Shown: positions 3,729-32,101 of the stretch, piece after piece
Layout of the letters: the number at the start of each line of letters is the position of its first letter
Numbering within the stretch: the first letter of the stretch is position 1
From: a virus
Length of the DNA stretch: 32,417 bases
Virus record (IMG/VR): IMGVR_UViG_3300036652_002077
Location: 1-32,417 of that record
Reading direction: 5' to 3' (one strand)
Made by a program: the position numbers and the translations under genes
Notes under the pieces: model-generated
Seen by the model: only the letters and a program-made list of their open reading frames with translations
The model's database searches: none
What the model was told of the DNA's origin: nothing

Positions 3729-4975
3729 GCTAGGGCGAGGCCGGGAGTGACGTCGGTTCTGCGCTCAATCAGCTTGGCGTACTCGCCCGACAGGTCGATC
3801 CCGATGCAATGGCGGCCGTGTTCCAGGGCCACTTGGGCCGTGGTGCCGCTACCCAGGAACGGGTCAAGGACGGTGCAGGGCACGGTTTTGGTTTCGCCGC
3901 ATTGGCAGGTGGGTTGCCAGCCCATGGTTTTTGCCCCTTGATACGTGTCCCAAACGGCTTGCCCGTGACTTCCTTGGTCATTGCCTCGTGCGGCGTCGTC
4001 AGCATGGTCGTGCCATGATTTGCCCGTGGTCCCGCCTGTTGGTTCTGACAAAATCCGCTCCCACGGCGCACCGCACTTTGGGCAGCAACCGCGCGCCGAG
4101 GTTCCGGCCAGGATACAGGGCAGCACGAGCGCCTTGGGAAACGTGGCGAAGTGTGCGCCCTTAAACGGCTCGGTGGCGATGGTCCAGACTGAGCGTTTGT
4201 TACGGCTGGAAACGAGACCGCTGCAGGCTTCCTCGAAACCCTTATTGTTTTTGATGCCGCTGCCAACTTCCGCCGCCTTGCGCTTTCCATAAGCCAAAAG
4301 ACCAGCCTTGGTGCGTTGTCGGTGGTCGCCATCAGCGTATGCTTGTGCACCTTTTGACGGGTTCACATTGCCCGGTAAGCGAGCGTGCGCACCGCCGTTC
4401 ACCGGCTCCTTCACCGCCTCAGCGTCGTAGAAGTAGTGCGGGCTTTTGGTGATCAGGAACAGGTATTCGTGCGATTTGGTTGGCCGGTCGGTCACGCTCT
4501 CAGGCATGGGATTGGGCTTGTTCCAAATAATGTCCGAGCGCAGATACCAGCCATCGGCGCGGAGTGCGAATGCGACGGCCCATGGGATTCCAACCAAGTC
4601 CTTTGATTTAAGCGTGCCCCACTCTTTGCGCTCTCGGATGTAAGCACCGGACTCCTTACAGGCTTGGTTTTTGCCACCGGATGAACCACCCCACTTGCCA
4701 ACCGATGCGAATGAATCACCGAGATTGATCCAGCAAACGCCATCGTCCCTGAGCACCCGGCGCACTTCACGGAAGATTAAAACCTCGTGCTCGATGAAAA
4801 GCTGCGGTGTGGGCTCAAGACCGTGGCAACCCGTCCAGCCGGTGGGCCATGTCACCGGTGGGAGCTTGTAGTCGCGCAAACCCCAGTACGGCGGCGAGGT
4901 CACGCAGCACTGGACCGACTCATCTGGCAGCCCGGCGAGCATGTCCAGAACGTGGCCTTGGAGGAAGCGGAACAT
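3725..4975 (-). CDS. DNA methyltransferase, N4-cytosine/N6-adenine type
   Basis: A 416-residue beta-class DNA methylase (N6_N4_Mtase family). The catalytic motif IV is TSPPY at residues 26-30. The AdoMet-binding motif I (DPFLGSG) lies near the C-terminus, followed by HCIGIDLSGEY; this IV-before-I order defines the class. The SPPY form is more common in N4-cytosine enzymes, though target base cannot be fixed from this alone. A CPKCGAPW motif paired with CQCGET forms a probable zinc ribbon just before motif I. The ATG at 4975 overlaps the upstream stop as TAATG. No cognate restriction endonuclease is visible, so it is an orphan phage methylase, likely protecting phage DNA from host restriction. 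Confidence 0.93.
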   Translation of the reverse strand: MFRFLQGHVLDMLAGLPDESVQCCVTSPPYWGLRDYKLPPVTWPTGWTGCHGLEPTPQLFIEHEVLIFREVRRVLRDDGVCWINLGDSFASVGKWGGSSGGKNQACKESGAYIRERKEWGTLKSKDLVGIPWAVAFALRADGWYLRSDIIWNKPNPMPESVTDRPTKSHEYLFLITKSPHYFYDAEAVKEPVNGGAHARLPGNVNPSKGAQAYADGDHRQRTKAGLLAYGKRKAAEVGSGIKNNKGFEEACSGLVSSRNKRSVWTIATEPFKGAHFATFPKALVLPCILAGTSARGCCPKCGAPWERILSEPTGGTTGKSWHDHADDAARGNDQGSHGQAVWDTYQGAKTMGWQPTCQCGETKTVPCTVLDPFLGSGTTAQVALEHGRHCIGIDLSGEYAKLIERRTDVTPGLALA

Positions 4976-9831: not shown

Positions 9832-10490
9832 GTCGTAGTCAATTTCCCCCATCGGGTTGGGTTTTTTTTGAGCCCAGCACAGGCTGGTCGGCGCCGATGC
9901 CTAAGGCCACCACCTTCGACACCACGGTTACCCAAATCATCCAGCACCGCCTCGCTAACCCGGCATTGATGCTGCGCCACAAGCTCTCGACCGATCGCAC
10001 GGTCGTCGCCAACGAGCTTGAAAACTTCACCCGGGCGAGGCTCGGGATGCAACCACTGGGGGCCGGTAACCCAAAACCGATGCCCAGCCGGACACTGCCA
10101 CAAGCCGTGCTCGGGCAAGTTGCTGCGGTGGCTAAGATGGCCGATGGGATTGGGCTGCTTTTGGACTTCATTCCCAACGGGACACCGGTTGCGCCTGAGC
10201 TTGCGGCCAAACGCGCCGAGGTCTGCTCGACATGCCCAAAGAATTCGGAGAAAGCCTTCCTCTCGTTCTTCACGCAGCCGGCGAGCGAGCGGTTGCAGAA
10301 GATGGTCGAGGCGCGAACCGAGTTGCATCTTTCAACGCCATACGACGAAAAGTTAGGAATTTGCCAGATCTGCCTTTGCCCAATGCGGCTTAAATGTCAT
10401 TTGCCCATGGACGTAATTCTGAGCAAGACAAAACCCGCAACCATGGCTGAGTTTCCAGACCATTGCTGGATAAAGCGGCAAGACCAATGA
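9816..10490 (+). CDS. zinc-binding conserved phage protein
   Basis: A 224-residue protein starting at ATG 9816, inside the last codons of the HNH gene. The N-terminal half includes a basic, helical segment (PALMLRHKL...ENFTRARLGM). The C-terminal half has CSTCPKN, CQICLCPMRLKCH and a final HCW, giving six or seven likely metal ligands. The arrangement matches a phage family seen in many genomes, with the sequence LSTPYDEKLGICQICLCP as its clearest mark, but its function is not known to me. It overlaps the next gene by four bases. No catalytic motif is visible. Confidence 0.7.
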   Translation: MDTIISRSQFPPSGWVFFEPSTGWSAPMPKATTFDTTVTQIIQHRLANPALMLRHKLSTDRTVVANELENFTRARLGMQPLGAGNPKPMPSRTLPQAVLGQVAAVAKMADGIGLLLDFIPNGTPVAPELAAKRAEVCSTCPKNSEKAFLSFFTQPASERLQKMVEARTELHLSTPYDEKLGICQICLCPMRLKCHLPMDVILSKTKPATMAEFPDHCWIKRQDQ

Positions 10491-11722
10491 ATTACGGCAC
10501 GGTATGCAGCGGGATTGGTGCGCCGGAATGCGCCTGGTCTGACCTCGGCTGGAAGTGCCAGTTCGCCGCAGAGATAGACGTTTTCCCTTCCGCCGTTCAT
10601 GCTCACCGTTTCCCTGGAGTACCAAACTATGGCGACATTACGAAATTCAAAGAATGGCCAGAGCAATCAATCGACATTCTCGTTGGAGGCACACCATGCC
10701 AGAGCTTTTCCGTCGCCGGACTCCGAAAGGGACTGGCTGATCCGCGTGGCAACCTTATGCTCACCTTCCTGGCCATCACTGGCCGCTATGCTCCCACCTG
10801 GGTCGTTTGGGAAAATGTGCCTGGCGTGCTGTCCATCGACGGAGGGCGGGCTTTTGGAGCCTTCCTCGGAGGGCTGGCAGAACTCGGGTATGGGTTCGCC
10901 TACCGAGTTTTGGACGCTCAATTCTTCGGAGTGGCCCAAAGACGCCGCCGTGTGTTCGTTGTCGGATGTGCTGGAGGACAATGGCAGCGTGCCGCAGCGG
11001 TATTATTTGAGCGCGAAAGCCTGTGCGGGAATCCTGCGCCGCGCCGAGAAACGCGGGAAAGACTTGCCCCAACAATTAGCGCACGCACTAAAGGCGGTGG
11101 CGGACTTGGGACAGACGCGGACTTAGACGGGGCGCTGATCACCCACAGCCTACGCGCCGATGGCTTCGACGCGAGCGAGGACAGCACCGCGCGGGGCACG
11201 CCGGTGGTTGCCGCATTTGGCGGCGATAACTGTTCGGGGCCAATAGAAATTGCTACTGCGTGCAGGGCGCACGGCTCATTTCATGGAGACTTTGAAACAG
11301 AAACAATGCTCGCGTTCAGTTCCAAAGACCACGGCGCGGATGCGGGACACACCGCACCAACACTGCGAGCCGCGCCACACGACAAATCGCACGCCAATTC
11401 GGGAGCGCCACCGGCGATTGCGTTTAAGCCAAACCAGGGCGCTAAGAGCCGAACCTTGGGAGCTTCCGAGCACGTTGCGCCAACACTCGAAAGCGCGATG
11501 GGAGGGAACAATAAGCCAGCCGTGCAACAGGGCTACGCTGTGCGCCGATTGACTCCAACCGAGTGCGAAAGACTCCAGGGCTTTCCAGATGGCTGGACGG
11601 CGATCCAATACCGAGGCAAACCCGCCGCCGATGGACCGCGCTACAAGGCACTGGGCAATTCGATGGCGGTACCGGTGCTAAAGTGGATCGGGCAGAGGAT
11701 TGAGATGGTGCATAAGCTGTGA
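10487..11722 (+). CDS. dcm: C5-cytosine DNA methyltransferase
   Basis: A 411-residue Dcm-type enzyme. It transfers a methyl group from AdoMet to carbon 5 of cytosine. Motif I is CSGIGAPE (7-14), motif IV GGTPCQSFS with nucleophile Cys71, motif VI ENVPG with Glu109, motif VIII QRRRRVFVV, motif IX LTPTECERLQGFP and motif X GNSMAVPV. The target recognition region (about 190-350) is long and Gly/Ala-rich, with repeated AF..K..G...APTL-type segments typical of phage Dcm proteins. ATG 10487 is chosen for its ATGA overlap with the upstream stop. No partner endonuclease is seen. With the methylase at 3725 this gives two orphan specificities. Confidence 0.95.
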   Translation: MNYGTVCSGIGAPECAWSDLGWKCQFAAEIDVFPSAVHAHRFPGVPNYGDITKFKEWPEQSIDILVGGTPCQSFSVAGLRKGLADPRGNLMLTFLAITGRYAPTWVVWENVPGVLSIDGGRAFGAFLGGLAELGYGFAYRVLDAQFFGVAQRRRRVFVVGCAGGQWQRAAAVLFERESLCGNPAPRRETRERLAPTISARTKGGGGLGTDADLDGALITHSLRADGFDASEDSTARGTPVVAAFGGDNCSGPIEIATACRAHGSFHGDFETETMLAFSSKDHGADAGHTAPTLRAAPHDKSHANSGAPPAIAFKPNQGAKSRTLGASEHVAPTLESAMGGNNKPAVQQGYAVRRLTPTECERLQGFPDGWTAIQYRGKPAADGPRYKALGNSMAVPVLKWIGQRIEMVHKL

Positions 11723-12432
11723 AGGTCCTCCTTACTTACATTTCTGTGACCGGCGGCCTCGTTACGCAACAATTTGCCAGCCGATTCGCCGCGACCTACC
11801 TGCAATTTCCGCCGGGTTACCCTCACAAGCTGCTCGTGGTTTGCAATGGCGGGCCGCCCGCAACCGAGCTTGGCCTGCTATTTCGACCGTTCGAAGCCGC
11901 GTTCTACCCGCGGCCAAACGACCCCGGCTGGGACGTGAGCGCCTTCGTGGACGTCGCCCGCAACATGGCCACCGATTACGATCTGATGATCTGCTGCGGC
12001 GAGTCGTGCTATTTCCATCGCCCTGACTGGCTCGCGCGCCTGGTCGAAGTGGTCGAGCGCTATCCCCGCGGCATGTATGGCTTCTTTTCCAGCCACGTCG
12101 TACGGCCGCACCTGAACACCACCGGGTTTGCCGTGTGGCCAAAGTGGCTCACCGATTACCCGCGCCAGGTGCGCTCACGCGACGAGCGCTACCACTTCGA
12201 GCACGGCGAATTCAGTTTCTGGCGCCATGTTCACGCCAAGGCGGGTCCGGTTAAGCTGGTGACCTGGGACGGCGACTGGAACCCGGGCCAATGGCGCTTG
12301 CCGCAGAACATCTTGTGGCGCGGCGACCAGTCAAATTGCCTGATTTGGTGCCGCCATAACGACATTTACCGAGACGCAGAGAAAGCGCGGCAGCTTAATT
12401 GGTCAGCGTCGATTGATCGGGTGGCGGTATGA
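11719..12432 (+). CDS. glycosyltransferase-like protein, RGDQSN family, copy 1
   Basis: A 237-residue protein with a GTG start overlapping the dcm stop (GTGA). The first strand (MKVLLTYISV), LLVVCNG and GWDVSAFVDVARN...YDLMICCGES followed by DWLARLVEVVERY resemble a GT-A fold, where the segment after YDL normally carries the D-x-D metal motif; here it is C-G-E-S. The C-terminal signature WRGDQSNCLIW is shared with the proteins at 12808 and 14162. There is no signal peptide, so it would act in the host cytoplasm. Donor and acceptor sugars cannot be inferred. Other possibilities include an inactive or non-metal-dependent enzyme. Confidence 0.6.
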   Translation: MKVLLTYISVTGGLVTQQFASRFAATYLQFPPGYPHKLLVVCNGGPPATELGLLFRPFEAAFYPRPNDPGWDVSAFVDVARNMATDYDLMICCGESCYFHRPDWLARLVEVVERYPRGMYGFFSSHVVRPHLNTTGFAVWPKWLTDYPRQVRSRDERYHFEHGEFSFWRHVHAKAGPVKLVTWDGDWNPGQWRLPQNILWRGDQSNCLIWCRHNDIYRDAEKARQLNWSASIDRVAV

Positions 12433-12617
12433 AGGACGATACCCGATATAAATGTCCGAAGTGCGGGATGGCTCTAAAATTTGAGCAGTTGCCGGACTTT
12501 AGTTGCGTCTGTCGGTGCCCCACATCCTATTGCAAAGGGGTTTCCGATCCTGGATTTGGTAAAGACGCCGCTACTGCCCACGCCGATTGGCTCAGGCGAA
12601 ACGGATTTGTGCAATGA
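12429..12617 (+). CDS. small zinc-ribbon protein
   Basis: A 62-residue protein, ATG overlapping the previous TGA. CPKCGMAL near the start and CVCRCPTSYC in the middle form a likely zinc ribbon. The C-terminal helix (AATAHADWLRRNGF) is similar to those of small phage restriction-alleviation-type (Lar-like) proteins, which have a CP-C...C...A...W..RN pattern. That resemblance is suggestive only. It is nested between two glycosyltransferase-like genes. Confidence 0.6.
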   Translation: MKDDTRYKCPKCGMALKFEQLPDFSCVCRCPTSYCKGVSDPGFGKDAATAHADWLRRNGFVQ

Positions 12618-12817
12618 AGGTCATCACGATTACATGTCCTGAACCGATGAGCGACTACAAGCGACGGGTGGCTCGCTGGCTGGCTTGGGATGGTTACCAA
12701 AAGCGCCGGCATGAAGTCCAAGGCCCGATGTTCAATGACGAAAATAAGGTTGAAGCAACGCAAGAATTTAACGATTTGCTTCTCAAAAATCTCAGAGACT
12801 ATCCCGAATGCGCTTAG
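12614..12817 (+). CDS. small hypothetical protein
   Basis: A 67-residue protein starting at ATG 12614 (ATGA overlap with the previous stop); an upstream extension to 12587 is not needed. It has a short N-terminal strand (MKVITITCPE), a basic helix with several Trp and Tyr (SDYKRRVARWLAWDGYQKRR) and an acidic helical C-terminus. No recognised domain. Confidence 0.5.
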   Translation: MKVITITCPEPMSDYKRRVARWLAWDGYQKRRHEVQGPMFNDENKVEATQEFNDLLLKNLRDYPECA

Positions 12818-13488
12818 CAATAGTTTACGTCTTTCCCAACACCGCCGAAGCGCAGCGCACCGAGCAGGCTGCGCGCTTCGTTACCAGCTACGGCGCTAAC
12901 CCGCCGGGCATGGACCATGAATCTATCGTAGTGCTCAACGGCAGTAGCGGCGGCGGGAGCGGGTTTGCCCAGGCGCTCTTTGCCGCTTTGCCAAATCTGC
13001 GCATTCTCCAGCACGATAACAGCGGGTGGGACATTGGCGGGTTTCAAAAGGCCGCACGCGAAGTGCCGTGTGATTTGATGGTGTTCTTTGGCGCTACGGC
13101 GTGGTTCCCGAAAGAAGGCTGGCTCAATCGGGTGGTCGAGGCGTCGAGATTGCGCGGGTTGGGCCTCTTTGGTGCTCATGGCAACCAGGGCGATAAGAAT
13201 GTCAGCGTATGGCCACACGTCAGGACTACGGGCTTCTGGTGCAACCCGGCGCTAATGAATCGTTACCCGATCCGGGTTACTGAGCCTGGCCAACGGTACC
13301 CATTCGAGCACGGCCCGCAGTGCTTCGCCAACTGGATTAAAGGCGAAGGTATGAAGGTGTGGGTTGTAGGATTCGATGGCGAGTACGAGGTCGATGTGTG
13401 CGACGCGATGCCAAACGGGTTCCACCGGGGCGACCAAAGCAACCTGCTATTTCGAGACCGGCTTAGCGATCCTCCCTACTACGCATGA
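12808..13488 (+). CDS. glycosyltransferase-like protein, RGDQSN family, copy 2
   Basis: A 226-residue paralogue of the proteins at 11719 and 14162. Aligned landmarks are the N-terminal strand MRLAIVYVF, IVVLNGSS, NSGWDIGGFQKAAREVPCDL, FFGATAWFPKEGWLNRVVEA, PHVRTTGFWCNP, FEHG and HRGDQSNLLF. The canonical D-x-D position reads F-G-A-T. Identity with the other two is moderate, so the duplications are old or the copies have diverged toward different sugars. ATG 12808 overlaps the upstream TAG and the gene ends in an ATGA overlap. No signal peptide. Assignment rests on fold-like patterning and on the surrounding sugar-modifying genes. Confidence 0.6.
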   Translation: MRLAIVYVFPNTAEAQRTEQAARFVTSYGANPPGMDHESIVVLNGSSGGGSGFAQALFAALPNLRILQHDNSGWDIGGFQKAAREVPCDLMVFFGATAWFPKEGWLNRVVEASRLRGLGLFGAHGNQGDKNVSVWPHVRTTGFWCNPALMNRYPIRVTEPGQRYPFEHGPQCFANWIKGEGMKVWVVGFDGEYEVDVCDAMPNGFHRGDQSNLLFRDRLSDPPYYA

Positions 13489-14165
13489 GACCTATTGCTA
13501 TCTTCTTCCACTGCCTCTTTTATATGGCCGATGAATTTCGGCCTCGTGCTTTGGAGATCGTTACCCACCAAATGAACCTGCTCAAGTCCTCGGGCTTGGC
13601 CGATGCCGCGAGCGAGATAGTGATCGGGATTAACGGTGGCGATGAGAGCCGGAACGTGGCCAGCATCGTTTGCCCGGCCAAGGCGCGTTTTGTCATGCAC
13701 GGCTTAGCCTCGCACGCTGAGAACCTCACCATAGTTGAGCTCGAACGCTGGGCGCCGACGCACCCTGACTGGTACGTGCTCTACTTTCACGCTAAGGGTT
13801 GCACCCATCGGCCCGGAGAGTCCTACGGCGACAATGTATCTGGTCCTTGGCGCGAGGGCATGACAGCAGACCTAGTGGAAGGCTGGCGACAATGCGTTGT
13901 GGACCTCGACGCGGGTTTCGATATCGCCTGTTCGCACTGGATGTGGAATATGGCCGATGGCACACAGCACATTCCGGCGGGTAATTTTCTTTGGGTAAAA
14001 TCCAACTTCGTTGCTAGGCTGCCGAGCATCTACCTGCGTGAGCGTATCAAAATGTCAGGCATATCGGCGGCCGAGAGCCGCTTCGAAGCCGAGGTTTATT
14101 GGGGCAACGGGCCGAGGCCGGCGGTTAAAGAGTATCGACCCAGTGGCGGCGGGGGTGTTCCGTGA
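13485..14165 (+). CDS. putative glycosyltransferase of a different family
   Basis: A 226-residue protein without the RGDQSN signature of its neighbours. Recognisable segments are MRPIAIFFHCLFY, ASEIVIGING, VLYFHAKGCTHRPGE, WREGMTADLVEGWRQCV, GFDIACSHWMWN and IPAGNFLWVKSNFVARLP. The pattern LYFHAKG(x)H plus AGNF(x)W(x)(x)S is seen in bacterial proteins annotated as polysaccharide glycosyltransferases. It sits between copies 2 and 3 of the other family with overlapping starts and stops. A cytoplasmic enzyme is likely, substrate unknown. Confidence 0.6.
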   Translation: MRPIAIFFHCLFYMADEFRPRALEIVTHQMNLLKSSGLADAASEIVIGINGGDESRNVASIVCPAKARFVMHGLASHAENLTIVELERWAPTHPDWYVLYFHAKGCTHRPGESYGDNVSGPWREGMTADLVEGWRQCVVDLDAGFDIACSHWMWNMADGTQHIPAGNFLWVKSNFVARLPSIYLRERIKMSGISAAESRFEAEVYWGNGPRPAVKEYRPSGGGGVP

Positions 14166-14878
14166 AAGTGGCGCTTGTCTATCCCTACATCGTTCCGAGA
14201 GCCGATGAGTACCGACAGGACGTTAGGCGATTTTGCAATACTCTGATGAATTTTAGCGCGGGCACCGATTTCGACATTTTTATCCAAACCTGCAACGGCA
14301 GAGAATTTGTCGGTGATGACGGCGAATGGTTGGGAGAGCTTTACTGGATGGGCGGTGAGTACTTTGGTGATGGATTCGACATTGGAGCCCACCAACACGC
14401 GGCAAACTCAATCCCACCCGAGTATGACTTCGCCGTGTTTTGTTCAACTCAAGTTCACTTCCACCGCGAAGGCTGGCTCAAACGCATGGTCGAGGCGCGC
14501 GAACAGTTTGGCCCAGGTCTCTACGGCGCTATGGCCAGCCGCGAGAACCATCCGCACCTGCGCACCTGCTTCTTTGGCTGCGACCCAGCCGACTTTCGGG
14601 CGTATCCGTGGGTAATCAACAGCAAGGCGCTGTCGCTGGAATTTGAGAGCGGCAAGACCGGCTTCTGGACGTGGATACGGGCCAATGGCCGAAAAGAGGT
14701 GCTCGTCGCCTGGGACGGGTTTTACGATGAGCGCAAAGACTGGCGCAAACCGGACAATATTTTTAGGCGCGGCGATCAATCCAACTGCCTCGTGTGGGAC
14801 CGGCACACCGAGCTTTACGCCAAGGCTACACCCGAGGAAAAGGCGATGCTTGAGCAGCTCGCGGATGGGATGGCATGA
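14162..14878 (+). CDS. glycosyltransferase-like protein, RGDQSN family, copy 3
   Basis: A 238-residue paralogue of 11719 and 12808, starting at a GTG that overlaps the previous TGA. Shared landmarks are MKVALVYPYI, IFIQTCNG, DGFDIGAHQHAANSI, FAVFCSTQVHFHREGWLKRM, HPHLRTCFFGCDP, FESG and RRGDQSNCLVWDR. As in the other copies, the site of the D-x-D motif is not acidic (C-S-T-Q). The three copies differ mainly between the CNG strand and the GWD/GFD helix. This copy is immediately followed by the FkbM methyltransferase, consistent with assembly of a methylated glycan. Confidence 0.6.
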   Translation: MKVALVYPYIVPRADEYRQDVRRFCNTLMNFSAGTDFDIFIQTCNGREFVGDDGEWLGELYWMGGEYFGDGFDIGAHQHAANSIPPEYDFAVFCSTQVHFHREGWLKRMVEAREQFGPGLYGAMASRENHPHLRTCFFGCDPADFRAYPWVINSKALSLEFESGKTGFWTWIRANGRKEVLVAWDGFYDERKDWRKPDNIFRRGDQSNCLVWDRHTELYAKATPEEKAMLEQLADGMA

Positions 14879-24005: not shown

Positions 24006-25319
24006 ATGCCAGCACCAGCAGCACCACCACCGGCGGCACCCGCCGCACCCGCCCCAGCATCCGCAGCACCCAAAGCCGCACCACCCGCGACCGAACCCGC
24101 CGATGGAGGCGCGTGGTTGGATGAAGTTGGCAGCGATTTGGAAGCGATGGACCGTGGCGAGACACCGCCGGATCGCGGCGCCTTCGTACCCAAACCGAAG
24201 GAAAAGCCCGAAGAAAAGGCCGATGATGCGTTGCCGCAAGATGTTGTCCCGCCCGAAAAGCCCAAGGACAAACCCAAACCTGCCGATGTACAGCCAGCGC
24301 CCGAGGCCCAAACCCTCAAGCTGCCCGAATTGCGCAAGGCGTACGACGGTCTCAAGAAGCGCGTAGCCAGCGAACTCGAACCCGAGGTCACCCGCCTGCG
24401 CTCCCAGGTCGCCGAACTGGAAAAGCGCGCGCCGGTCGATACCAAACCGTTCGAAGAGAAGGTTACGGCGGCCGAGAAGCGCATTGCCGACCAGGAAGCG
24501 GTGATCCGGTATCTCAATTACCAAGAGAGCGCCGAGTTTAATGAGAAGTATCAGAAGCCCTACAACGAGGCTTGGCAAAAGGCCTTGGGTGAAATGGCAG
24601 AGCTGGAAGTAGAGCAGTCGGACGGCACTACTCGCAGGCCAACCGAAAACGATTTGATCTCTCTGGCAGGTATGAATTTGGGCGAGAGAAGGAAGGCCGC
24701 CAATGCCATGTTTGGCGATTCGGCAGACGACGTGATGGCTCACGTTCGAGAAATTCGCCGGCTGGCCGACGCCCAACACAATGCCTTGCAGCAAGCCAAG
24801 ACCAACGCGGCCCAAATGGCCGAGGACAATAAGACCCGCAGCATCGAGAACGCCAAGGTCCGCAATGCTGCCTGGGAAACTCAAAATCAGAGCCTCGCGC
24901 AAAAGTATCCCCAGTGGTTTGCTCCTGACGCCGAGGATTCTGAGGGATCTGCCTTACTGAAAAAGGGTTTCGCCATTGCTGACCTCGTTTTCTCTTCCAA
25001 ACCGCCCGATGAGGCCACCAAGCAGCTTTTGCCCAAATCGTTCCTCGCTGACCTCGAAGCCAACAAGGGCCGGTTGTCGCCCGAGGCGCAGATCCGCCTG
25101 CACACCCTGATTCGCAACAAGGCGGCCGGGTTCGACCGCCTCGCCCGCCAGGTCAAAAGCCTGAGCACGCAACTCGAAGAGGCAAATAAGAAGCTCGCCG
25201 CGTACGAGGACACCGAGCCGCCTACGGGTGGCGACAGCCCAACCGGTGGCGGTGTGGTGGGCGATTACCTCGAAGATTCCAACGCTGAGCTTGATAAGCT
25301 CGACAAGCTGAGCCGATGA
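24006..25319 (+). CDS. probable scaffolding protein
   Basis: A 437-residue acidic, highly helical protein. The first 100 residues are low-complexity Ala/Pro followed by Lys/Pro/Glu (KPKEKPEEKADD). Residues about 105-175 are a coiled coil (LRKAYDGLKKRVASELEPEV, RLRSQVAELEKRA), and further coiled coils occur at 255-285 and 380-405. There are no Cys residues and no enzyme motif. This composition and its place between portal and probable major capsid genes fit an internal scaffold that directs procapsid assembly. A fused protease is not visible. The call rests on composition and position. Confidence 0.6.
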   Translation: MPAPAAPPPAAPAAPAPASAAPKAAPPATEPADGGAWLDEVGSDLEAMDRGETPPDRGAFVPKPKEKPEEKADDALPQDVVPPEKPKDKPKPADVQPAPEAQTLKLPELRKAYDGLKKRVASELEPEVTRLRSQVAELEKRAPVDTKPFEEKVTAAEKRIADQEAVIRYLNYQESAEFNEKYQKPYNEAWQKALGEMAELEVEQSDGTTRRPTENDLISLAGMNLGERRKAANAMFGDSADDVMAHVREIRRLADAQHNALQQAKTNAAQMAEDNKTRSIENAKVRNAAWETQNQSLAQKYPQWFAPDAEDSEGSALLKKGFAIADLVFSSKPPDEATKQLLPKSFLADLEANKGRLSPEAQIRLHTLIRNKAAGFDRLARQVKSLSTQLEEANKKLAAYEDTEPPTGGDSPTGGGVVGDYLEDSNAELDKLDKLSR

Positions 25320-25612
25320 AGCTCTCGAAACTCAGCGCCCGACAGCTCTCGAAACATTTGCGCCGCGCCATGAAGAGTGGCGATGAACAAATGGCCAAGA
25401 GCGCCTCGTATTTTTGGGCGCAGCGCATCGAGGGTGGCCCGGCGAAAAGCTGCACGCCAAAGGCAAAACTGAGAAAGGCGGGTTTGCTCCCGCCGGTGAA
25501 TTATGATCCGACCGTTACAAGGCCAGTGCCTAATACGCTTGCTCCCGCCGGACAAAGCGACATTGAGCGGGCTGCTATTGCCCGATGTGGCTCAGGACAA
25601 CCCGCGTGGTGA
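25316..25612 (+). CDS. small basic hypothetical protein overlapping groES
   Basis: A 98-residue protein whose ATG overlaps the scaffold stop. The first 60 residues are basic and helical (KLSARQLSKHLRRAMKSGDE, SASYFWAQRIEG). The final 36 codons overlap the co-chaperonin gene in another frame, an unusually long overlap for this genome. Either both proteins are real or a sequencing error has lengthened this one. Function unknown. Confidence 0.45.
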   Translation: MKLSKLSARQLSKHLRRAMKSGDEQMAKSASYFWAQRIEGGPAKSCTPKAKLRKAGLLPPVNYDPTVTRPVPNTLAPAGQSDIERAAIARCGSGQPAW

Positions 25613-25835
25613 AAAGGCTCGACCGAGAAAGGGCTTAGTCATCGCGTGCGGACCATGGAAAACGACCAAGCAAGGTTTTTCGGTCCTGCCCGATTTTAGG
25701 CCGGGTGACACAGTGCTCCTGAGCGAGTACATCGGCACCAAATTGACCAGGGCGATCGGTGAAAACCTACGGCTTTGCAGGGTTAATGACGTGCTTGCGG
25801 TGCTCAGCGAGAACGGCGATAGTGCCTCGCACTAG
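25503..25835 (+). CDS. GroES-like co-chaperonin
   Basis: A 110-residue protein matching the Cpn10 fold. It opens with IRPLQGQCLIRLLPP (compare IRPLxDRVLVK), has a mobile-loop segment ATLSGLLLPDVAQ, then GLVIACGPW, FRPGDTVLLSEYIGTKL and NLRLCRVNDVLAVL. GroES-type lids close the GroEL chamber; phage versions such as T4 gp31 enlarge it for the capsid protein. Its place just ahead of the probable capsid gene supports the same role here with host GroEL. ATG 25503 has no strong ribosome site and lies inside the preceding gene. Confidence 0.85.
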   Translation: MIRPLQGQCLIRLLPPDKATLSGLLLPDVAQDNPRGEKARPRKGLVIACGPWKTTKQGFSVLPDFRPGDTVLLSEYIGTKLTRAIGENLRLCRVNDVLAVLSENGDSASH

Positions 25836-25849
25836 GTTGTTCGTGATAG

Positions 25850-25900
25850 GAGCCGCTCCTGCTCATTCGGTGAGGATGAGGGGAGCGGTTCTTTTTATTT
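25850..25900 (+). terminator. rho-independent terminator after groES
   Basis: GAGCCGCTCCT (25850-25860) pairs with GGGAGCGGTTC (25881-25891) with two G-U pairs. After a one-base bulge, CTCAT pairs with ATGAG, giving about 16 bp around a nine-base loop. TTTTTATTT follows directly. It closes the head-gene operon and isolates the next cassette. Confidence 0.85.
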
Positions 25901-25901
25901 G

Positions 25902-25934
25902 TTGACTAAAAGCGACGTTCTGATAAGGTCGCTT
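25902..25934 (+). promoter_or_regulatory. promoter with overlapping inverted-repeat operator
   Basis: TTGACT (25902-25907) and TAAGGT (25924-25929) are 16 bases apart, a near-consensus promoter directly after the terminator; GATAAG two bases earlier is an alternative -10 box. AAGCGAC (25910-25916) and GTCGCTT (25928-25934) form a 7-bp inverted repeat with an 11-bp centre covering the spacer and -10 box, a typical repressor site. Predicted transcription start is near 25936. Confidence 0.6.
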
Positions 25935-25935
25935 C

Positions 25936-26028
25936 ATGGTCAAAGCAGTCAGTAATCTCAGCGCCGTTTTCTTGGGGCCTTTCTCACGATTGGCTGCTTT
26001 GACCAGCAACCCAGGAAGGCGGCGCTGA
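25936..26028 (+). ncRNA. leader RNA with two interleaved long helices (A-B-A'-B')
   Basis: Helix A: 25937-25953 pairs with 25989-26005, 17 bp including two G-U pairs, no mismatch. Helix B: 25958-25976 pairs with 26010-26028, 19 bp including three G-U pairs, no mismatch. The 5' arm of B lies in the loop of A, and the 3' arm of A lies in the loop of B. Linkers A-B and A'-B' are both four bases; the central loop is twelve. Linkers this short cannot span complete helices of this length, so the helices are more likely mutually exclusive or only partly paired at once. G-U pairs without mismatches point to RNA rather than DNA pairing. The ribosome site CGGAG (26036-26040) is eight bases downstream, so switching could control translation of 26048. 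Confidence 0.7.
25936..26028 (+). CDS. possible 30-codon leader ORF spanning the paired region
   Basis: ATG at 25936, close to the predicted transcription start, opens a frame ending at TGA 26026-26028, the last bases of helix B. The peptide begins MVKAVSNLSAVFLGPF and ends in three Arg. It has no ribosome binding site and would be read from a leaderless mRNA. It could be a translated attenuator leader or a coincidence of the palindromes. Confidence 0.2.
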   Translation: MVKAVSNLSAVFLGPFSRLAALTSNPGRRR

Positions 26029-26047
26029 TTTTATTCGGAGTAACCAC

Positions 26048-26755
26048 ATGACAAAAGTTAAACTACCTGCGGCTGACCGCATCTCTAATGGCGAGGTGAT
26101 CGAAAGCGAGCCGCTCTCAAAACTCAACATTCAAATCTCAGCGCCAAAAATGCGGACGGCTGAGTTTGAAATCGAAGGCACCGCGCCGCTCGTCATTCAT
26201 CGCTTCAGCCAAAAGGCAAAAATGGAAATGATGGCCAAAATGACCGCTGGTAGCGTAGCCAACAAGGGCAAGAAGCGAGAGCCGATGAACGTCGAGAGGC
26301 TTTACAACGAAGCTCGCTATATCTCACCGGAAGGCTGGGACGGCTTTAATGTCTCGGCGGTGCGCAACGGCCTGATTAGCGCCTGCCGCATTGTCAGTTT
26401 CAAGATGACTCTCGCTAAAATGGGCGTTTTCGTTCTGGCAGATGGCCGAGACAAGCTTGAGCCGCAGTTTGGGCTCATCCGCATCTACGGCAAACCGGTT
26501 CGCACCGAAATGACTGCCAGGGTCGAGACCGGCGCGGCTTATGTCACGGTGAGGCCGATGTACGATCCGTGGTCGGCCAAAATTCGCATCCGGTTCGATT
26601 CAGATATGTTCTCATTCGAGGACATTGCGAACCTGCTTTCGCGCATGGGCGAGCAGGTTGGGCTTTGCGAGGGAAGGCCGGACTCGAAAAATTCTGCCGG
26701 AATGGGCTGGGGAGTTTTCGTTGTGAAGGGAGAAAAGACCGATGAAAAACGCTAA
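26048..26755 (+). CDS. conserved phage protein with RAMP-like glycine-rich loop
   Basis: A 235-residue protein with ribosome site CGGAG seven bases before ATG 26048. I recognise it as a phage family of unknown function. Conserved-looking parts are GTAPLVIHRFSQKAK (44-58), KKGKKREP-like basic segment (73-79), EARYISPEGWDGFNVSAVRN (88-107), RPMYDPWSAKIRIRFD (169-184), EDIANLLSRMGEQVG (191-205) and GRPDSKNSAGMGWGVF (209-224). The last resembles the glycine-rich loop of RAMP/Cas5-Cas7-type RNA-binding proteins (GxxxSxGxGxG) and sits at the same C-terminal place. That relation is inference from pattern only. It is the first gene behind a structured leader RNA and would be a good candidate to bind it. 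Confidence 0.65.
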   Translation: MTKVKLPAADRISNGEVIESEPLSKLNIQISAPKMRTAEFEIEGTAPLVIHRFSQKAKMEMMAKMTAGSVANKGKKREPMNVERLYNEARYISPEGWDGFNVSAVRNGLISACRIVSFKMTLAKMGVFVLADGRDKLEPQFGLIRIYGKPVRTEMTARVETGAAYVTVRPMYDPWSAKIRIRFDSDMFSFEDIANLLSRMGEQVGLCEGRPDSKNSAGMGWGVFVVKGEKTDEKR

Positions 26756-27167
26756 AATCGAAGCCTGCTTGCGGCAGATTGCTACCAAGCACGGCGGAAT
26801 GCTCAAGCCAGAGCACATCATCAAAGAGGCCGAGAGCCCAAAGCATCCACTTCACAGCCGGTTCGAATGGGACGATACAGAAGCCGCCTACCAGCATCGG
26901 CTTTGGCAGGCCCGCCAACTTATTTCGGTTTGCGTCGAAGTGATTGGCGACTTTGACCCAAGCCCGGTGTTCGTTTCTCTCAGCAGTGACCGGGGCAGCG
27001 GTGCTGGTTATCGGGTTATGGCAAACGTCATGTCCGATGCCGAAATGCGGGCGCAGTTGCTCAAGGACGCTTTGCATGAGGCAAACCGATGGGCGCAAAA
27101 ATATCACAAGCTAAAGCAATTAGCCGGGGTGTTTGCCGCGTTGAAGAAGGTCAAAAAGGCTGCCTGA
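26742..27167 (+). CDS. conserved phage protein paired with the upstream gene
   Basis: A 141-residue protein starting at ATG 26742 inside the end of the previous gene. It has a compact helical N-terminus (KIEACLRQIATKHGGMLKPE), then the family mark PLHSRFEWDDTEAAYQHRL, a helix (WQARQLISVCVEV), strand-like PSPVFVSLSSD and a long C-terminal helix ending in Lys (QKYHKLKQLAG, ALKKVKKAA). The RFEWDD-type motif is familiar from other phages, where function is also unknown. Coupled translation with 26048 implies the two act together. The G-rich pentamer array begins 13 bases after its stop. Confidence 0.65.
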   Translation: MKNAKIEACLRQIATKHGGMLKPEHIIKEAESPKHPLHSRFEWDDTEAAYQHRLWQARQLISVCVEVIGDFDPSPVFVSLSSDRGSGAGYRVMANVMSDAEMRAQLLKDALHEANRWAQKYHKLKQLAGVFAALKKVKKAA

Positions 27168-27180
27168 TTCAAAAAGTAAT

Positions 27181-27574
27181 GGCATGGCAGGCAAGGAATG
27201 GTGGGAACCGGATTGGTCGTGACTGGCGGGGTCAGGATTGGTTTGGAATGGCATGGCAGGCTTGGCACGGCATGTCGCCGTCAGGGGAGGGCTGGCGCGG
27301 TCAGGATTGGTTTGGAATGGCATGGAGAGGCCGGCGGGGTCGGGCCGGGTGAGGGCCGGTGGGGTGGTGCGGGGCATGGTCCGGTTCGGAAGGCAATGGT
27401 TAGGAATGGCAGGCGAGGCGAGTACTGGAATGGCATGGACGGGTGCTGATTTGTCAGGTCCGGTGTGGTATGGCGTGGCAGGCATGGTTTGGCGCGTGTA
27501 GGTATGGCTCGGATAGGTGTGGACGGCAGGCATGTTTGGGCGTGTTAGGGATTGGTGTGGCCAGGGAGGCAGGG
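27181..27574 (+). repeat. GGNNN pentanucleotide-periodic array
   Basis: Over about 395 bp, GG recurs every five bases with variable triplets between. By hand count roughly 70 of about 79 positions keep GG. Most exceptions are single changes to GT or TG, and a few steps are four bases. AATGGCATGG recurs at about 27178, 27247, 27316 and 27429, and a 27-bp block is duplicated. GG-N3-GG-N3-GG-N3-GG is a two-tetrad G-quadruplex motif, so about 18 could form in tandem on the coding strand. The array follows the gene pair directly and ends in AGGG followed by T6 (27572-27580). Open frames here are side effects of the 5-base period and are not called genes. Confidence 0.85.
27230..27325 (+). repeat. 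27-bp direct repeat inside the array
   Basis: The 27 bases at 27230-27256 recur exactly at 27299-27325, 69 bases apart; they start GGTCAGGATTGG and end GGAATGGCATGG. This shows the array grew at least once by duplication of several pentamers together. The offset is not a multiple of five because one step between the copies is four bases long. Confidence 0.85.
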
Positions 27575-27583
27575 TTTTTTCAT

Positions 27584-27613
27584 TTGACAGAATCCTGTCT
27601 TCCGTGCGATAGG
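27584..27613 (+). promoter_or_regulatory. promoter candidate for the capsid operon
   Basis: TTGACA (27584-27589) is followed after 18 bases by GATAGG (27608-27613) with an extended TG one base before it. GACAG/CTGTC (27586-27590 and 27595-27599) form a short inverted repeat over the -35 box. It lies just after the T6 tract of the array and about 155 bases before the capsid gene; the leader between (27614-27768) shows no other clear element. The capsid ATG itself has only a weak GAG upstream. Confidence 0.4.
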
Positions 27614-27768
27614 AGGATTGACGTAACCGGTTTCGTCGCCCGGGGCGTATAGAGTCTCGCCAGCTTCATCCGGCTGTAAGGGCCGAGGACATAACCCGAA
27701 CGGTTTGCGCCTCGCGTGTGCCTGGATGCTTTCCGCTCGAAAACTTTTCACCAGAATTTTTTTGAGCT

Positions 27769-29328
27769 ATGGCCTTAACATGCCGCAGTTTTACGGATTT
27801 CCTCTCGCGCCGCTCCGAGCACCTTGATGATTTAATTATTAGAGCGCTGCATCCAGTCGATGGCTGGATCGGCCATGTGAGCATTGGTCGATTCAAAGCC
27901 GAAGATGGCGTGGAGCACACCTTTGACCGCTTCGAAAACGTATTCCCTGACCTCTCGGGCGTGTGGGAAGACGTCACCGCTTCTTCGTGCGTTGGGTTGC
28001 CTTGCGACCCGTCGAGCACCAAGATCGGCCTGGGCTTCACGCGCGACAGCTACAAGTTGCAGCGCCGGGCCTACGAAACGGACTTGTTCTGTTTCGACCA
28101 GATCCTGAGCGCCGACCGCGCCAAGCAGCAATTTGCGCACGTCATTCGCACGCTGCGCCGGGCTTCTTCGCTGATTACCGGCCACCGGTTTCGGACTGAG
28201 GCATTGCGCATCGTCAAATACAAGTGGGCTCTGGCCAATAACACCCTTGTCCCGATTACCGCGACCTGGGACGCGACCCAAACCTTGCTCACGGTGAGTG
28301 CGCTGCCGACTTCCAAGCTCTCCCCGCGCCACCTGCAACGGCGGGTGCAGCCGCAGATCCGCGAGGGTGCTCTTTCTGAGGACCTGAACCGTGGAGGCGC
28401 GCCCATGCTCGAATTCGTTTCGGACATGGATGAAATCTGGGCGATGGACGAGGGCAACCCCGAGGTTACCGACCATTGGCGCTTTAACCTGTTCGATACC
28501 CAGGGTGCCAAAGAGTTTTACAAGTACGGCTGGTCTGGAACGGTGGGTAACTACGGTGTGCGCGCCGACTGGTGCGCTTTGCGTTTCAACGTGAAGCAGC
28601 AGAATGCGGACGGCTCGGCTGTCCTGCAGCTCGTACTCCCCTACACCAACGTCTCTGCGACCGAGGGTATCAAAGAACAGGTTAATGCGGACTTCGACAA
28701 TGCCCGCATTCAGCTCGACTTCATCTGGCACCGCAAGGCGATGACCTCGCTCGTTCGCGACACGACTGCCATCAATCCCGAGATGCCATTCGCCATGCGC
28801 GATTTCGCGGGCAAGTGGCAATTCGTGATGGACAACCTGACCTGCGGCACCGACGTCAACGGCAACCCGATTGCGGTGGACAACGCGCGCCGGAATAAGG
28901 GCAAATTCATTGCCGATTGGGCCTACGCGACCAAGGCCGAATACCCCGAATTGGGCGAGGCCATGTTCCACCTGCGCGAGCCCGCTTGCATCGTGGACGT
29001 GCCTCCTTGCGCCAACGACCCGGGTTACCCGGCTCAGTCGTACGGCAGCGCCAATGCGCTTTGCCCGAGCACGACCGTTGTGCTCACGTTCACCCCGGCG
29101 ATCAACGTCGTTACCGGCACCTACCAGGTGGCGCGCGACTCCATCACCTGCAACGGCCTGAATATTCTCAACCCGCCCATTGACGGCAGCACCACGCTGA
29201 CCGCCCTGGTGGCGCAATTCAACTCGTTGCTGGCTTCGATGGGTGTGTGGTCTGTGCTCAGCGCGACCCAGATCCAGCTTACCGGCTCGGTCTGTCAGAC
29301 TGTCGCGATCCCCTGGATCGTTGACTAA
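27769..29328 (+). CDS. probable major capsid protein
   Basis: A 519-residue protein behind scaffold and GroES-like genes. The content fits an HK97-type or similar coat: RTEALRIVKYKWALANNTLV, PMLEFVSDMDEIWAMDEGN, ATEGIKEQVNADFDNARIQLD and GKFIADWAYATKAEYPE are mixed alpha/beta with many aromatic residues. The last 120 residues (PGYPAQSYGSANALCPSTTVVLTFTP onward, in sections) read as a beta-rich domain with NVVTGTYQVARD and SATQIQLTG, probably a surface insertion or Ig-like extension. Several Cys are present. No signal peptide. It is the largest likely structural gene after the portal; the family cannot be named by eye. Confidence 0.65.
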   Translation: MALTCRSFTDFLSRRSEHLDDLIIRALHPVDGWIGHVSIGRFKAEDGVEHTFDRFENVFPDLSGVWEDVTASSCVGLPCDPSSTKIGLGFTRDSYKLQRRAYETDLFCFDQILSADRAKQQFAHVIRTLRRASSLITGHRFRTEALRIVKYKWALANNTLVPITATWDATQTLLTVSALPTSKLSPRHLQRRVQPQIREGALSEDLNRGGAPMLEFVSDMDEIWAMDEGNPEVTDHWRFNLFDTQGAKEFYKYGWSGTVGNYGVRADWCALRFNVKQQNADGSAVLQLVLPYTNVSATEGIKEQVNADFDNARIQLDFIWHRKAMTSLVRDTTAINPEMPFAMRDFAGKWQFVMDNLTCGTDVNGNPIAVDNARRNKGKFIADWAYATKAEYPELGEAMFHLREPACIVDVPPCANDPGYPAQSYGSANALCPSTTVVLTFTPAINVVTGTYQVARDSITCNGLNILNPPIDGSTTLTALVAQFNSLLASMGVWSVLSATQIQLTGSVCQTVAIPWIVD

Positions 29329-29725: not shown

Positions 29726-30106
29726 ATGTCAGTTGTAACCTGTGACCAAAAAACGCTGAATGCTGGCCAGAAATGTTACTCTTGCCTGAGTGACAAGGAA
29801 GTTCAGGCTGCCATTGTTTACTGGCTTGAGCAACGCCGTGCAGTACTTACCGGACAAACGCCTCAAACCGTCGCGCAGCTTCGCAAGTCGGCTGCCTGCT
29901 TTGGTTGTATGCCGGCTAATCTTATTGCCGATGGTCTTGATGCTTTTATTGCCCAACAGGGCGCAATCGTCGCTGGGGCACCCGGTGCTTCGATTATTAC
30001 AATCGCTCAAATTCGGGCTGCGATTAAGGGATTTGCCAACACCAGTATCCAGGAACTGAGAAGCATGGAAATCATCACTCGCTGCGCGCTCAACGCCTTC
30101 CCTTAA
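29726..30106 (+). CDS. protein with three copies of a Cys module
   Basis: A 126-residue protein from ATG 29726. It contains the module found in the next three genes: KCYSCLSDKEVQAAIVYWL, then ACFGCMPANLIADGLDAFI, and a third copy without the Cys pair (KGFANTSIQELRSMEIITRC). Each unit is about 35 residues: a C-x-x-C turn, then a helix. Between units lie Thr/Ala-rich spacers (QTPQTVAQLRKSA). The neighbours use the module as an N-terminal domain of larger proteins, so this one may be a virion adaptor or decoration protein. The C-x-x-C may form a disulfide or bind metal. Confidence 0.6.
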   Translation: MSVVTCDQKTLNAGQKCYSCLSDKEVQAAIVYWLEQRRAVLTGQTPQTVAQLRKSAACFGCMPANLIADGLDAFIAQQGAIVAGAPGASIITIAQIRAAIKGFANTSIQELRSMEIITRCALNAFP

Positions 30107-30110
30107 AGCC

Positions 30111-30347
30111 ATGGCCGTCAACTGTGATCCAGCGGCACTGGTGGCGGCCGCCAAGTGCTTTTCTTGCATCCCGCCGCAAATGCAAAAACCGGTTGAGCTC
30201 TACCTCCTGGCGGTGGCCAACGGTTTTGCTACCGACAAAAACGGTGTGAACACCATTGTCGCCAATGCGAAGTGCTTTTCGTGTATCGAAAAAGAGATGC
30301 GCGAGCCGGTCGAGCTTTACGAATTGTGCCAACTCGTTAATAAGTGA
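30111..30347 (+). CDS. protein with two Cys modules
   Basis: A 78-residue protein made almost wholly of two copies of the module: AKCFSCIPPQMQKPVELYLL (about 14-33) and AKCFSCIEKEMREPVELYEL (about 53-72). Between them is a short linker with a Thr-Asp-Lys-Asn turn. It begins MAVNCDPAALVAAAKC, matching the start of the next two genes. ATG 30111 lies two bases after the previous TAA region. It is probably a small virion protein that binds the same partner as its neighbours. Confidence 0.65.
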   Translation: MAVNCDPAALVAAAKCFSCIPPQMQKPVELYLLAVANGFATDKNGVNTIVANAKCFSCIEKEMREPVELYELCQLVNK

Positions 30348-30350
30348 TGA

Positions 30351-31316
30351 ATGAGCATATCCTGCGACCCCGCCGCCCTTGTCCGCGCAGCGAAGTGCTT
30401 TCCCTGTGTTCCTAAGCAATCGCGTCGATGGGTTAAGGCCTACCTTCTCTGCCAGCTTTCCAGCAAGGCAAGTCCCTTTGGTACATTCGGTGCGTCAGTA
30501 GGCAATGACTGGGCGCGCCGGGTAGTGGTCAACGGTGGCCCAATGCCTTCCCAAAACAGTATCAACGCGGTTTCAGCCTTCACCGACACGCTGAATAACG
30601 CCGGGCTGTGGTCGAAGATGATCCACATCAACGTGATTGCTCCCGACAGCATCAATGCGTTTTTGACACCGCTTCTGGTTGGTGGTGGCAATGACCCCTG
30701 GCAGGCGGTTTGCGGCAATAACAACATAACCACCCTCGGCTTGACCGTAAACGGGGTGAAGGCCAATGGGGGAAACAGCGCGGCCGAGAACACTGGGATT
30801 ATCGCCGTGAATGCGTTCCCATCGGACGCCAGCGCCGGTATCACCATCTACATTGCCCAGGGCAGCCTAAGCGAAGCGGCTCAGGATGGGGGGTATATCC
30901 GAAGCGTCGATAACGGCGCCAACTTTGCCATGTACACCAACATCGCGAATACCTGTTACTTCCTCTGTTGGGATGGCGCCAATGGCCAGTGCTCAGGGGC
31001 TTTCCCAGGCGGTTTTGCCGGCAACGGGTACTTTTCTGGCAATAGAACCGCTGCCAACAACTCAAAAATCTATGTCGCTAATTCCGCAACGGCTCACCAG
31101 CAAGCGGCGACCTTGGCCACAATGGGGGGCACTCGTCAAAACGCGCCAGCTTACGCTTTGGATGCGTATAACATTACCGGCCCGGGCTGCGGCACCGTTT
31201 CAAACAAGCGCTGCTCGTTTTGGGCGCTTCACCTTGGGCTAATCCAGTCTGAGTCGCTCACCTTGTTCAATGCCGTCCAGGCGCTTCGTACCGCGCTAGG
31301 AGGCGGCTTTATTTGA
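30351..31316 (+). CDS. virion surface protein: Cys module plus beta-rich domain
   Basis: A 321-residue protein from ATG 30351. Residues 1-35 are the Cys module (CDPAALVRAAKCFPCVPKQ...VKAYLLCQ). The rest (about 45-321) is a beta-rich domain with WARRVVVNGGPMPSQNSI, MIHINVIAPDSINAFLTPLL, LGLTVNGVKANGG and a Cys-Ser-rich end. This resembles phage virion proteins with a concanavalin/LamG-type sandwich, usually tail or capsid surface binders. No signal peptide or membrane segment. The N-terminal module is likely the attachment part, the large domain the exposed one. Confidence 0.65.
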   Translation: MSISCDPAALVRAAKCFPCVPKQSRRWVKAYLLCQLSSKASPFGTFGASVGNDWARRVVVNGGPMPSQNSINAVSAFTDTLNNAGLWSKMIHINVIAPDSINAFLTPLLVGGGNDPWQAVCGNNNITTLGLTVNGVKANGGNSAAENTGIIAVNAFPSDASAGITIYIAQGSLSEAAQDGGYIRSVDNGANFAMYTNIANTCYFLCWDGANGQCSGAFPGGFAGNGYFSGNRTAANNSKIYVANSATAHQQAATLATMGGTRQNAPAYALDAYNITGPGCGTVSNKRCSFWALHLGLIQSESLTLFNAVQALRTALGGGFI

Positions 31317-32101
31317 GCATCTCTTGCGATCCATCGGCCTTGGTGCGCGCGGCGAAGTGCTTCCCGTGTGTGCCCAAGCAAGCTCGTCGATGGGTCAAAG
31401 CCTATCTGCTCTGCCAGTACGCCAACAAAACTCCGCAGCCACCCTGCGTTAATAATGTGGCACTTATTGCGGATCATTTTGGAGGCAGCGACGTTCAAGA
31501 TGGGGCTAACTGCTCTTTCACTTTTAATGCAGCTCATCAAGTTGCGGCGGGAAACACGGTGCTTGTCGGTATAGCCATGTTCGTTGGGGGTGGGGGTGGA
31601 CACGTTTTTACGCAACTGGATCTCACACAGTCAGGGGGAACGGCCGCGATTGGTCCTATTGCGCTGGATGCTGCTATCAATTTTGCGGCGAACGATTTTG
31701 GATTGGCTATTTTCCGCGTGCCAATTACCGCTCCAGGTACCCTTACCTTGACGTTTGGTCCACCTGGATTTGTTGAAATGGGATGCGCGGAATTTTCTGG
31801 ATTGGCCGCGGTGCCGTTTGAGGCATCCTTCTCCAACAACGGGAATAGTATCGCAGAGTCAAGCGGTTCGATGGCAACCTCAACCTGCGGTCTAATGTTT
31901 TACGCCGCCTCAGAAGCATCGAACGAGGATTGGGTCAGACAGTTTTCCGATCAACTTATTTACTCGCTTTCAACGGGAGCAACCACCTCAACCAGTATAT
32001 TCCAGTTCAAACTAATCAACTCGTCTCCTACGGTTATGACAAGTAGCGCCGGGGCGGCTGAACCATGGAAGGTCCTTTGTGCGAAATATAAAACCTCTTA
32101 G
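31313..32101 (+). CDS. virion surface protein: same Cys module, different C-terminal domain
   Basis: A 262-residue protein with a TTG start, supported by a perfect AGGAGG (31298-31303) nine bases upstream and a TTGA overlap with the previous stop. The first 35 residues (CDPSALVRAAKCFPCVPKQ) are almost identical to those of the gene before. The C-terminal domain, however, is unrelated: a Gly/Ser/Thr-rich beta sandwich with HQVAAGNTVLVGIAMFVGGG, FGLAIFRVPITAPGTLTLTF and FSGLAAVPFEASF. Domain exchange behind a constant N-terminus is typical of tail-fibre or decoration proteins with changing receptors. Confidence 0.65.
   Translation: MSISCDPSALVRAAKCFPCVPKQARRWVKAYLLCQYANKTPQPPCVNNVALIADHFGGSDVQDGANCSFTFNAAHQVAAGNTVLVGIAMFVGGGGGHVFTQLDLTQSGGTAAIGPIALDAAINFAANDFGLAIFRVPITAPGTLTLTFGPPGFVEMGCAEFSGLAAVPFEASFSNNGNSIAESSGSMATSTCGLMFYAASEASNEDWVRQFSDQLIYSLSTGATTSTSIFQFKLINSSPTVMTSSAGAAEPWKVLCAKYKTS

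Follow-up and report, generated by a model that had tools for sequence, protein, structure and literature searches.

The 32,417-base IMG/VR phage record IMGVR_UViG_3300036652_002077, referred to here in its entirety as the window, carries a compact cassette upstream of its presumed capsid gene that consists of two overlapping genes, A and B, followed by an array in which GG dinucleotides recur at five-base steps. What could such a combination of genes and array do? A sequence-only reading had proposed an RNA-guided functional unit comprising a RAMP-like protein, its partner and the array, and had also suggested an RNA decoy or genome marking. We found that A is homologous to Vipr and that the code of the array equals the published guide code of VIPR (Viral Interference Programmable Repeat) systems, which bears out the RNA-guided unit and makes the cassette a new VIPR locus, an identification that we regard as very probable. 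For a decoy or a genome mark we found no support beyond the array itself.

VIPR systems, published in 2026, comprise a phage-encoded RAMP named Vipr, which has a glycine-rich loop and a thumb domain, together with an accessory protein (Vap) and guide RNAs (PMC13142463, doi 10.64898/2026.04.26.720920). CRISPR RAMPs have been proposed to descend from these systems, which fall into seven types, with vap1-6 as the described accessory families (PMC13142463). Their guides consist of 9-16 YNNGG units, and double-stranded DNA is read by the NN pairs, one base being skipped between them. In Escherichia phage SUSP1, Vipr has been shown to bind DNA in double-stranded form and to silence genes (PMC13142463).

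Gene A, gene B and the array that accompanies them

The proteins encoded by A (235 amino acids) and B (141 amino acids) belong to phrog_4652 and phrog_15946, respectively, both PHROG families of unknown function, and their genes overlap by 14 bases, in agreement with the earlier description of two coupled genes from phage families without assigned function. Alignment of a profile of 15 A homologues with SUSP1 Vipr by hhalign gave a probability of 96 and an E value of 4.6e-9. When the PDB was searched with the A family profile, the sole significant sequence match was 36pp, 'SUSP1 Vipr protein' (E 1.6e-5), and phrog_4652 is common to A and SUSP1 Vipr. In the SUSP1 genome, which we fetched and scanned, GGY arrays flank two genes at 28031-29061, and the A profile matches the larger of the two proteins. 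The glycine-rich loop is conserved among A homologues. An AlphaFold model of A (pLDDT 76.5, pTM 0.70, with residues 68-72 at low confidence) has the RAMP subunit fold of class 1 CRISPR effectors: the first 50 matches listed by Foldseek against the PDB were all class 1 CRISPR effector chains, the best with an E value of 2.9e-4. Judged by its sequence relatives, A is a Vipr, a small RAMP.

The RAMP fold of A would also be expected if the cassette were a remnant or mini-array of a class 1 CRISPR-Cas system. However, searches of the window for tandem and direct repeats returned degenerate repeats inside the GG array and no repeat-spacer arrays, the PADLOC defence library gave no matches for A or B, and the nearest solved sequence relative of A is Vipr rather than a Cas protein. 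We consider a CRISPR origin of this kind extremely improbable.

The model of B is all-helical (pLDDT 86, pTM 0.46) and had no match among PDB folds. Each of the 18 distinct other loci tested has a homologue of B on the 3' side of A, and it is this constant position on which we base its designation as probably the VIPR accessory protein.

To characterize the array, we compared the spacing of its 92 GG dinucleotides with that in 1,000 dinucleotide-preserving shuffles. There were 55 GG pairs at lag 5, compared with 20.8±4.0 (maximum 33) in the shuffles. A chain of 69 GGs could be traced through the array with 50 steps of five bases, 8 of four, 8 of ten and 2 of fifteen. No single phase was enriched across the whole array, because recurrent four-base units, mostly GGCA, slip the register by one base. 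The claim of a GG-every-five array ending in T6 thus holds for the periodicity and for the T6 (27575-27580, 3' of the array), but not for its single phase. In pooled relatives, the base after GG was C in 546 cases, T in 219, A in 93 and G in 34 (86% pyrimidine), and the next two bases were mixed. Steps in the relatives that were not multiples of five comprised 138 of four bases, 8 of three and 0 of six; with scoring that did not favour GCA, 107 of the 138 four-base steps were xGCA, nearly always followed by GG. With scoring that favours GCA, the distance between xGCA marks was 5n+4 in 139 of 140 cases. These steps and their spacing suggest that the array is composed of GGYNN guides split by xGCA, and that of the window reads as about six guides, in segments of 8-16 units (Table 1). 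Segments 1 and 2 have the units GGTCA GGATT GGTTT GGAAT GGCAT in common, with near-duplicates at 27223-27256 and 27292-27325. We rejected the array as a protein-coding sequence: a reverse-strand open reading frame at 27120-27533 exists because the array lacks stops. Separately, gene 40 of Gordonia phage UmaThurman (L099 6625-6948) coincides with a GGYNN array and is probably not protein-coding, an artefact of the same kind.

In their dinucleotide habits, the NN pairs resemble natural coding DNA (r 0.83, compared with a null of 0±0.31; 0.28 for the Y-N pair), and of six phases, codon positions 1-2 fit the NN base composition best. These statistics do not fix the skip length, and the NN dinucleotide correlation leaves the codon phase unresolved; they provide independent but weaker support for reading the array as guides.

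We identified A homologues at 17 loci in IMG/VR (with one sequence repeated in L002-L006), in a phage collection (cyanophage Cy-LDV1 and Gordonia and Mycobacterium phages) and at 12 loci in bacterial genome contigs, including Bradyrhizobium lablabi and Roseococcus. A GGNNN array adjoins A at every one of the 30 further distinct loci that were examined, in phages and in viral and bacterial contigs, and it lies on the coding strand of A, with different NN content and the same xGCA punctuation. In a blind scan for lag-5 GG that covered every fetched locus, the A loci came out on top. Chain parsing placed the array 3' of B, between A and B, or 5' of A; in L012 the parser missed a degenerate array after B, to which the blind scan gave a score of 12.0. 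The sequence-only reading had made its proposal depend on homologues having an array or a structured leader nearby, and every relative examined has an array. The most distant relatives, Actinobacteria phages with 26-31% identity, still carry the array, so this check of homologues favours an association between gene and array.

The association extends to a second Vipr lineage. In a sample of 78 contigs with a relative of the presumed capsid gene of the window, which includes the near-duplicates L020/L036 and L022/L032, arrays occurred in seven (L020, L022, L032, L036, L051, L057 and L078), exactly the seven that have a Vipr gene. The Vipr of L051 is an A homologue, and the other six are a different Vipr, represented by profile A5, on the opposite strand. 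The A5 profile matched SUSP1 Vipr with an E value of 5.1e-10 and A1 with an E value of 1.1e-5. In L078, an array alone at the edge of the fetched DNA predicted a Vipr, and the gene was found when the sequence was extended. The A5 arrays contain a GC hairpin, GGGCCGNAAGGCC (GGGCCTTCGGGCC in L078), and therefore look tailed.

Slippage can yield G-rich five-base repeats, and segments 1 and 2 contain near-duplicate stretches; on this view the array would be non-coding, either a minisatellite that has degenerated or a G-rich DNA structure such as two-layer G-quadruplexes, and its position beside the gene would be incidental. Such an origin is hard to reconcile with the recurrence of the code beside A in 30 other distinct loci, with differing NN and the same strand and punctuation, or with the confinement of arrays among the 78 capsid relatives to those with a Vipr gene, and we regard it as highly improbable.

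Points against a VIPR locus and the search for guide targets

Several results weigh against identifying the cassette as a VIPR locus. The TM-scores of the A model are modest (about 0.43), which makes the fold by itself a weaker argument than the sequence link. B is unrelated to the accessory protein of SUSP1 (phrog_5926), so the locus lacks a vap1-type partner. In the window a pyrimidine follows GG in 35 of the 50 five-base units (70%), which is below the pooled 86%. The constant structured 3' tail of the SUSP1 type is absent after the window repeats, where guides abut and the boundary constant is xGCA alone. Searches with guides decoded by a one-base skip (the NNxNN rule) add to these points: for segment 1, an exact 18-base search of IMG/VR returned no match, segments 3 and 4 had background matches alone in that database, and when up to 3 mismatches were allowed across 50 full records of related phages, segments 1 and 4 matched nothing. 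A candidate target emerged for the last guide of relative L011: of its 30 NN positions, 26 agree with phage contig L103 (546-589), including a consecutive run of 22, and the site is antisense to a gene that looked like a baseplate hub on inspection by eye. This site is not wobble-aligned with its gene, and we estimate that a match as good would be expected by chance roughly 0.1-0.2 times over all inspected hits, so we treat it as a lead and not as proof.

Exact-pattern scans of IMG/VR with five segments besides that of L011 returned nothing or background (24 and 29 hits checked), and outside the searched core no background hit of another guide exceeded 5 matches. For a guide from a Bradyrhizobium prophage, a search of 272 genomes gave two-mismatch hits only, and a second guide from this prophage gave a single one-mismatch hit, below the chance expectation. 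The rules could not be told apart when skips of 0-3 were compared on roughly 1.3-1.6 Mb of fetched DNA. Matched cores common to many phages (FDDGSKADCLAL protein, HVGEPGGGIPSDLKI) fell in single families or unrelated frames and do not count as evidence of targeting.

That the guides of the window gave no DNA targets would be consistent with a Vipr-RNA complex that acts on RNA, or that sponges up or regulates transcripts of the phage itself, instead of a DNA guide; the best Foldseek matches of A are mostly RNA-targeting type III and type VII RAMPs. However, the type III matches reflect fold and not substrate, the SUSP1 homologue acts on double-stranded DNA (PMC13142463), and missing targets are expected for an environmental phage and sparse databases. 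An RNA-directed function is, in our view, very unlikely.

Leader RNA, flanking elements and the capsid-side slot

A leader with two interleaved helices, in the order A-B-A'-B', had been proposed ahead of gene A, and we found both pairs of arms (helix A, 25937-25951/25991-26005; helix B, 25953-25976/26010-26033). Its fold energy was -49, compared with -31.6±3.4 for shuffles (z -5.1). The L002 lineage has a homologous leader upstream of A, with 79% identity over 100 nucleotides. There helix B retains each of its 18 core pairs, with five two-sided (compensatory) and two one-sided changes, and 14 of the 15 pairs of helix A are preserved, with one compensatory change. The tolerance of G-U pairs in helix B points to a function as RNA and not as DNA. 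We disfavour a full pseudoknot with both helices formed at once, as a 4-base link would be too short for a 15-pair helix; because this connector could not accommodate both full-length helices, alternative pairing would be preferred, and the likeliest reading of the leader is a two-state switch.

The leader is not a general part of the system. It was absent ahead of A in 12 other relatives and present in only one other lineage, L002, which places it outside the VIPR core. A hammerhead or other known RNA was considered and rejected: an Rfam scan of the window found no families, and the scan of 15 relatives gave a tRNA and nothing else; a weak match to c-di-GMP-I within gene B (E 4.1) was attributed to chance.

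A GroES-like co-chaperonin gene, phage-encoded and kept near this position in most capsid relatives examined, lies directly ahead of the cassette. The terminator reported after it was recovered as a hairpin with arms at 25850-25859 and 25882-25891 that folds into a 13-pair stem and is followed by a T-rich stretch. A consensus terminator scanner did not list the 25850-25900 hairpin, probably because of its loop limit of 8. For the adjoining promoter and operator, the inverted repeat is real (25910-25919/25925-25934, 90%), but the promoter is a weak candidate: a scan of 25300-27900 for sigma-70-type consensus found no sites. At the equivalent spot, L002 has TTGACA-N17-GATTCT.

Most of the A5 Viprs occupy the stretch from the scaffold/groES genes to the capsid gene or lie close to it. 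In several relatives that lack a Vipr, only about 260-340 bases separate groES from the capsid gene, so that VIPR cassettes look like exchangeable inserts. VIPR cassettes thus appear to have a hotspot in this slot on the upstream side of the capsid gene.

Table 1. Positions of the cassette elements in the window and of second-lineage Vipr cassettes in related phages
Feature	Position	Strand	Basis
GroES-like co-chaperonin gene	25503-25835
Terminator-like hairpin with T-rich tail, 3' of the groES-like gene	25850-25900	+	Inverted repeat and fold
Possible promoter, weak; TTGACT at 25902-25907	25902-25934	+	Inverted repeat; L002 counterpart
Leader RNA with interleaved helices	25936-26033	+	Fold z; L002 conservation
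A, vipr gene; RAMP fold, guide-binding by homology; glycine-rich loop at about residues 201-222	26048-26755	+	hhalign, PDB profile match, Foldseek, PHROG
B, probable vap (VIPR accessory protein), phrog_15946, all-helical	26742-27167	+	Position after A
vrRNA array (predicted), GGYNN units with 4-base xGCA punctuation	27181-27574	+	Lag-5 GG, unit chain, family grammar
Guide segment 1 (NN: AA AT GG CC TT CG CT GG CA TT TT AT AT)	27190-27258	+	Unit chain
Guide segment 2 (CA TT TT AT AT part in common with segment 1)	27259-27332	+	Unit chain
Guide segment 3	27333-27411	+	Unit chain
Guide segment 4	27412-27480	+	Unit chain
Guide segment 5	27481-27528	+	Unit chain
Guide segment 6, followed by T6	27529-27574	+	Unit chain
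Second-lineage Vipr cassettes	L020 3372-4559; L022 3729-4859; L032 4517-5608	-	A5
Second-lineage Vipr cassettes	L057 4451-5763; L191 355-1062; L036; L078 edge	-	A5

Elsewhere in the window, two DNA methyltransferases are encoded at 3725-4975 (-) and 10463-11722 (+), one N6/N4 (CcrM-like) and one cytosine-5 (Dcm-like). Tandem open reading frames of about 230 amino acids at 11719-14878, three of which have an RGDQSN motif, appear to be a duplicated gene family. Successive open reading frames at 29726-32101, 3' of the capsid gene, have common cysteine motifs (AAKCFSC/AAKCFPCVPKQ) and also appear to have arisen by tandem duplication.

Proposed mechanism and comparison with known systems

How might this newly found VIPR locus work? 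Its RNA-level function can be inferred from that of SUSP1, by analogy with which we would expect RNA binding, a one-base skip and silencing of competitors. Several copies of Vipr would line up along the array RNA, one per five bases, each gripping GGY and leaving the following two bases (NN) free. Read as NNxNNx..., the NN pairs within a segment would spell out a site in double-stranded DNA, as a rule that of a competing phage or prophage, where the bound complex would block transcription, with B probably assisting DNA binding as the accessory protein. In this branch, the 4-base xGCA would reset the five-base register between strung guides, with no tail of the SUSP1 type. Tentatively, and with more doubt than confidence, we suggest that the cassette may represent a tail-less, single-transcript branch of VIPR that combines the xGCA register reset with a leader RNA switch of interleaved helices setting the amount of Vipr and guide, and with a capsid-side site of VIPR exchange.

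VIPR is now seen in Mycobacterium and Gordonia phages, a cyanophage, Bradyrhizobium and Roseococcus contigs and many environmental phages, in which the genes are annotated as hypothetical. The GGYNN and xGCA grammar allows such systems to be detected from raw DNA alone, and with hosts that can be cultured, the guide-boundary and targeting rules of the tail-less branch are open to direct testing.

Compared with the RAMPs of class 1 CRISPR systems (Csm3, Cmr4, type VII Cas7 and gRAMP), A shares the predicted fold, whereas the window has no CRISPR array and the A sequence matches Vipr and no Cas proteins. The features that the window has in common with VIPR are a small RAMP homologue with a glycine-rich loop, GGYNN guides and a minimal locus of vipr, partner and array. 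It resembles the VIPR of SUSP1 (type II, the SUSP1 / P. fulva clade) in being a two-gene phage locus with a phrog_4652 Vipr and same-strand GGYNN arrays beside the genes. The two differ in the partner (phrog_5926 in SUSP1, phrog_15946 in the window), in the length of Vipr (195 amino acids in SUSP1, 235 in the window) and in the guides, which in SUSP1 each have a constant structured tail, whereas the roughly six guides of the window are continuous with 4-base xGCA between them. Some VIPR arrays are described as 'staggered with overlapping vrRNAs' (PMC13142463), and the continuous multi-guide array of the window would fit that description. Homologues of A and B with punctuated arrays occur in phages whose genes are annotated as hypothetical: in Mycobacterium phage Quico (gp57-58), the GCA-punctuated GGNNN array precedes A; in Gordonia phages UmaThurman (gp39-41) and Ecliptus (gp19-20), it lies between A and B; and in cyanophage Cy-LDV1 (g33-34), it is found twice, between A and B and 3' of B. 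The A proteins of these four phages have 26-47% identity to that of the window, in which the array is found only after B.

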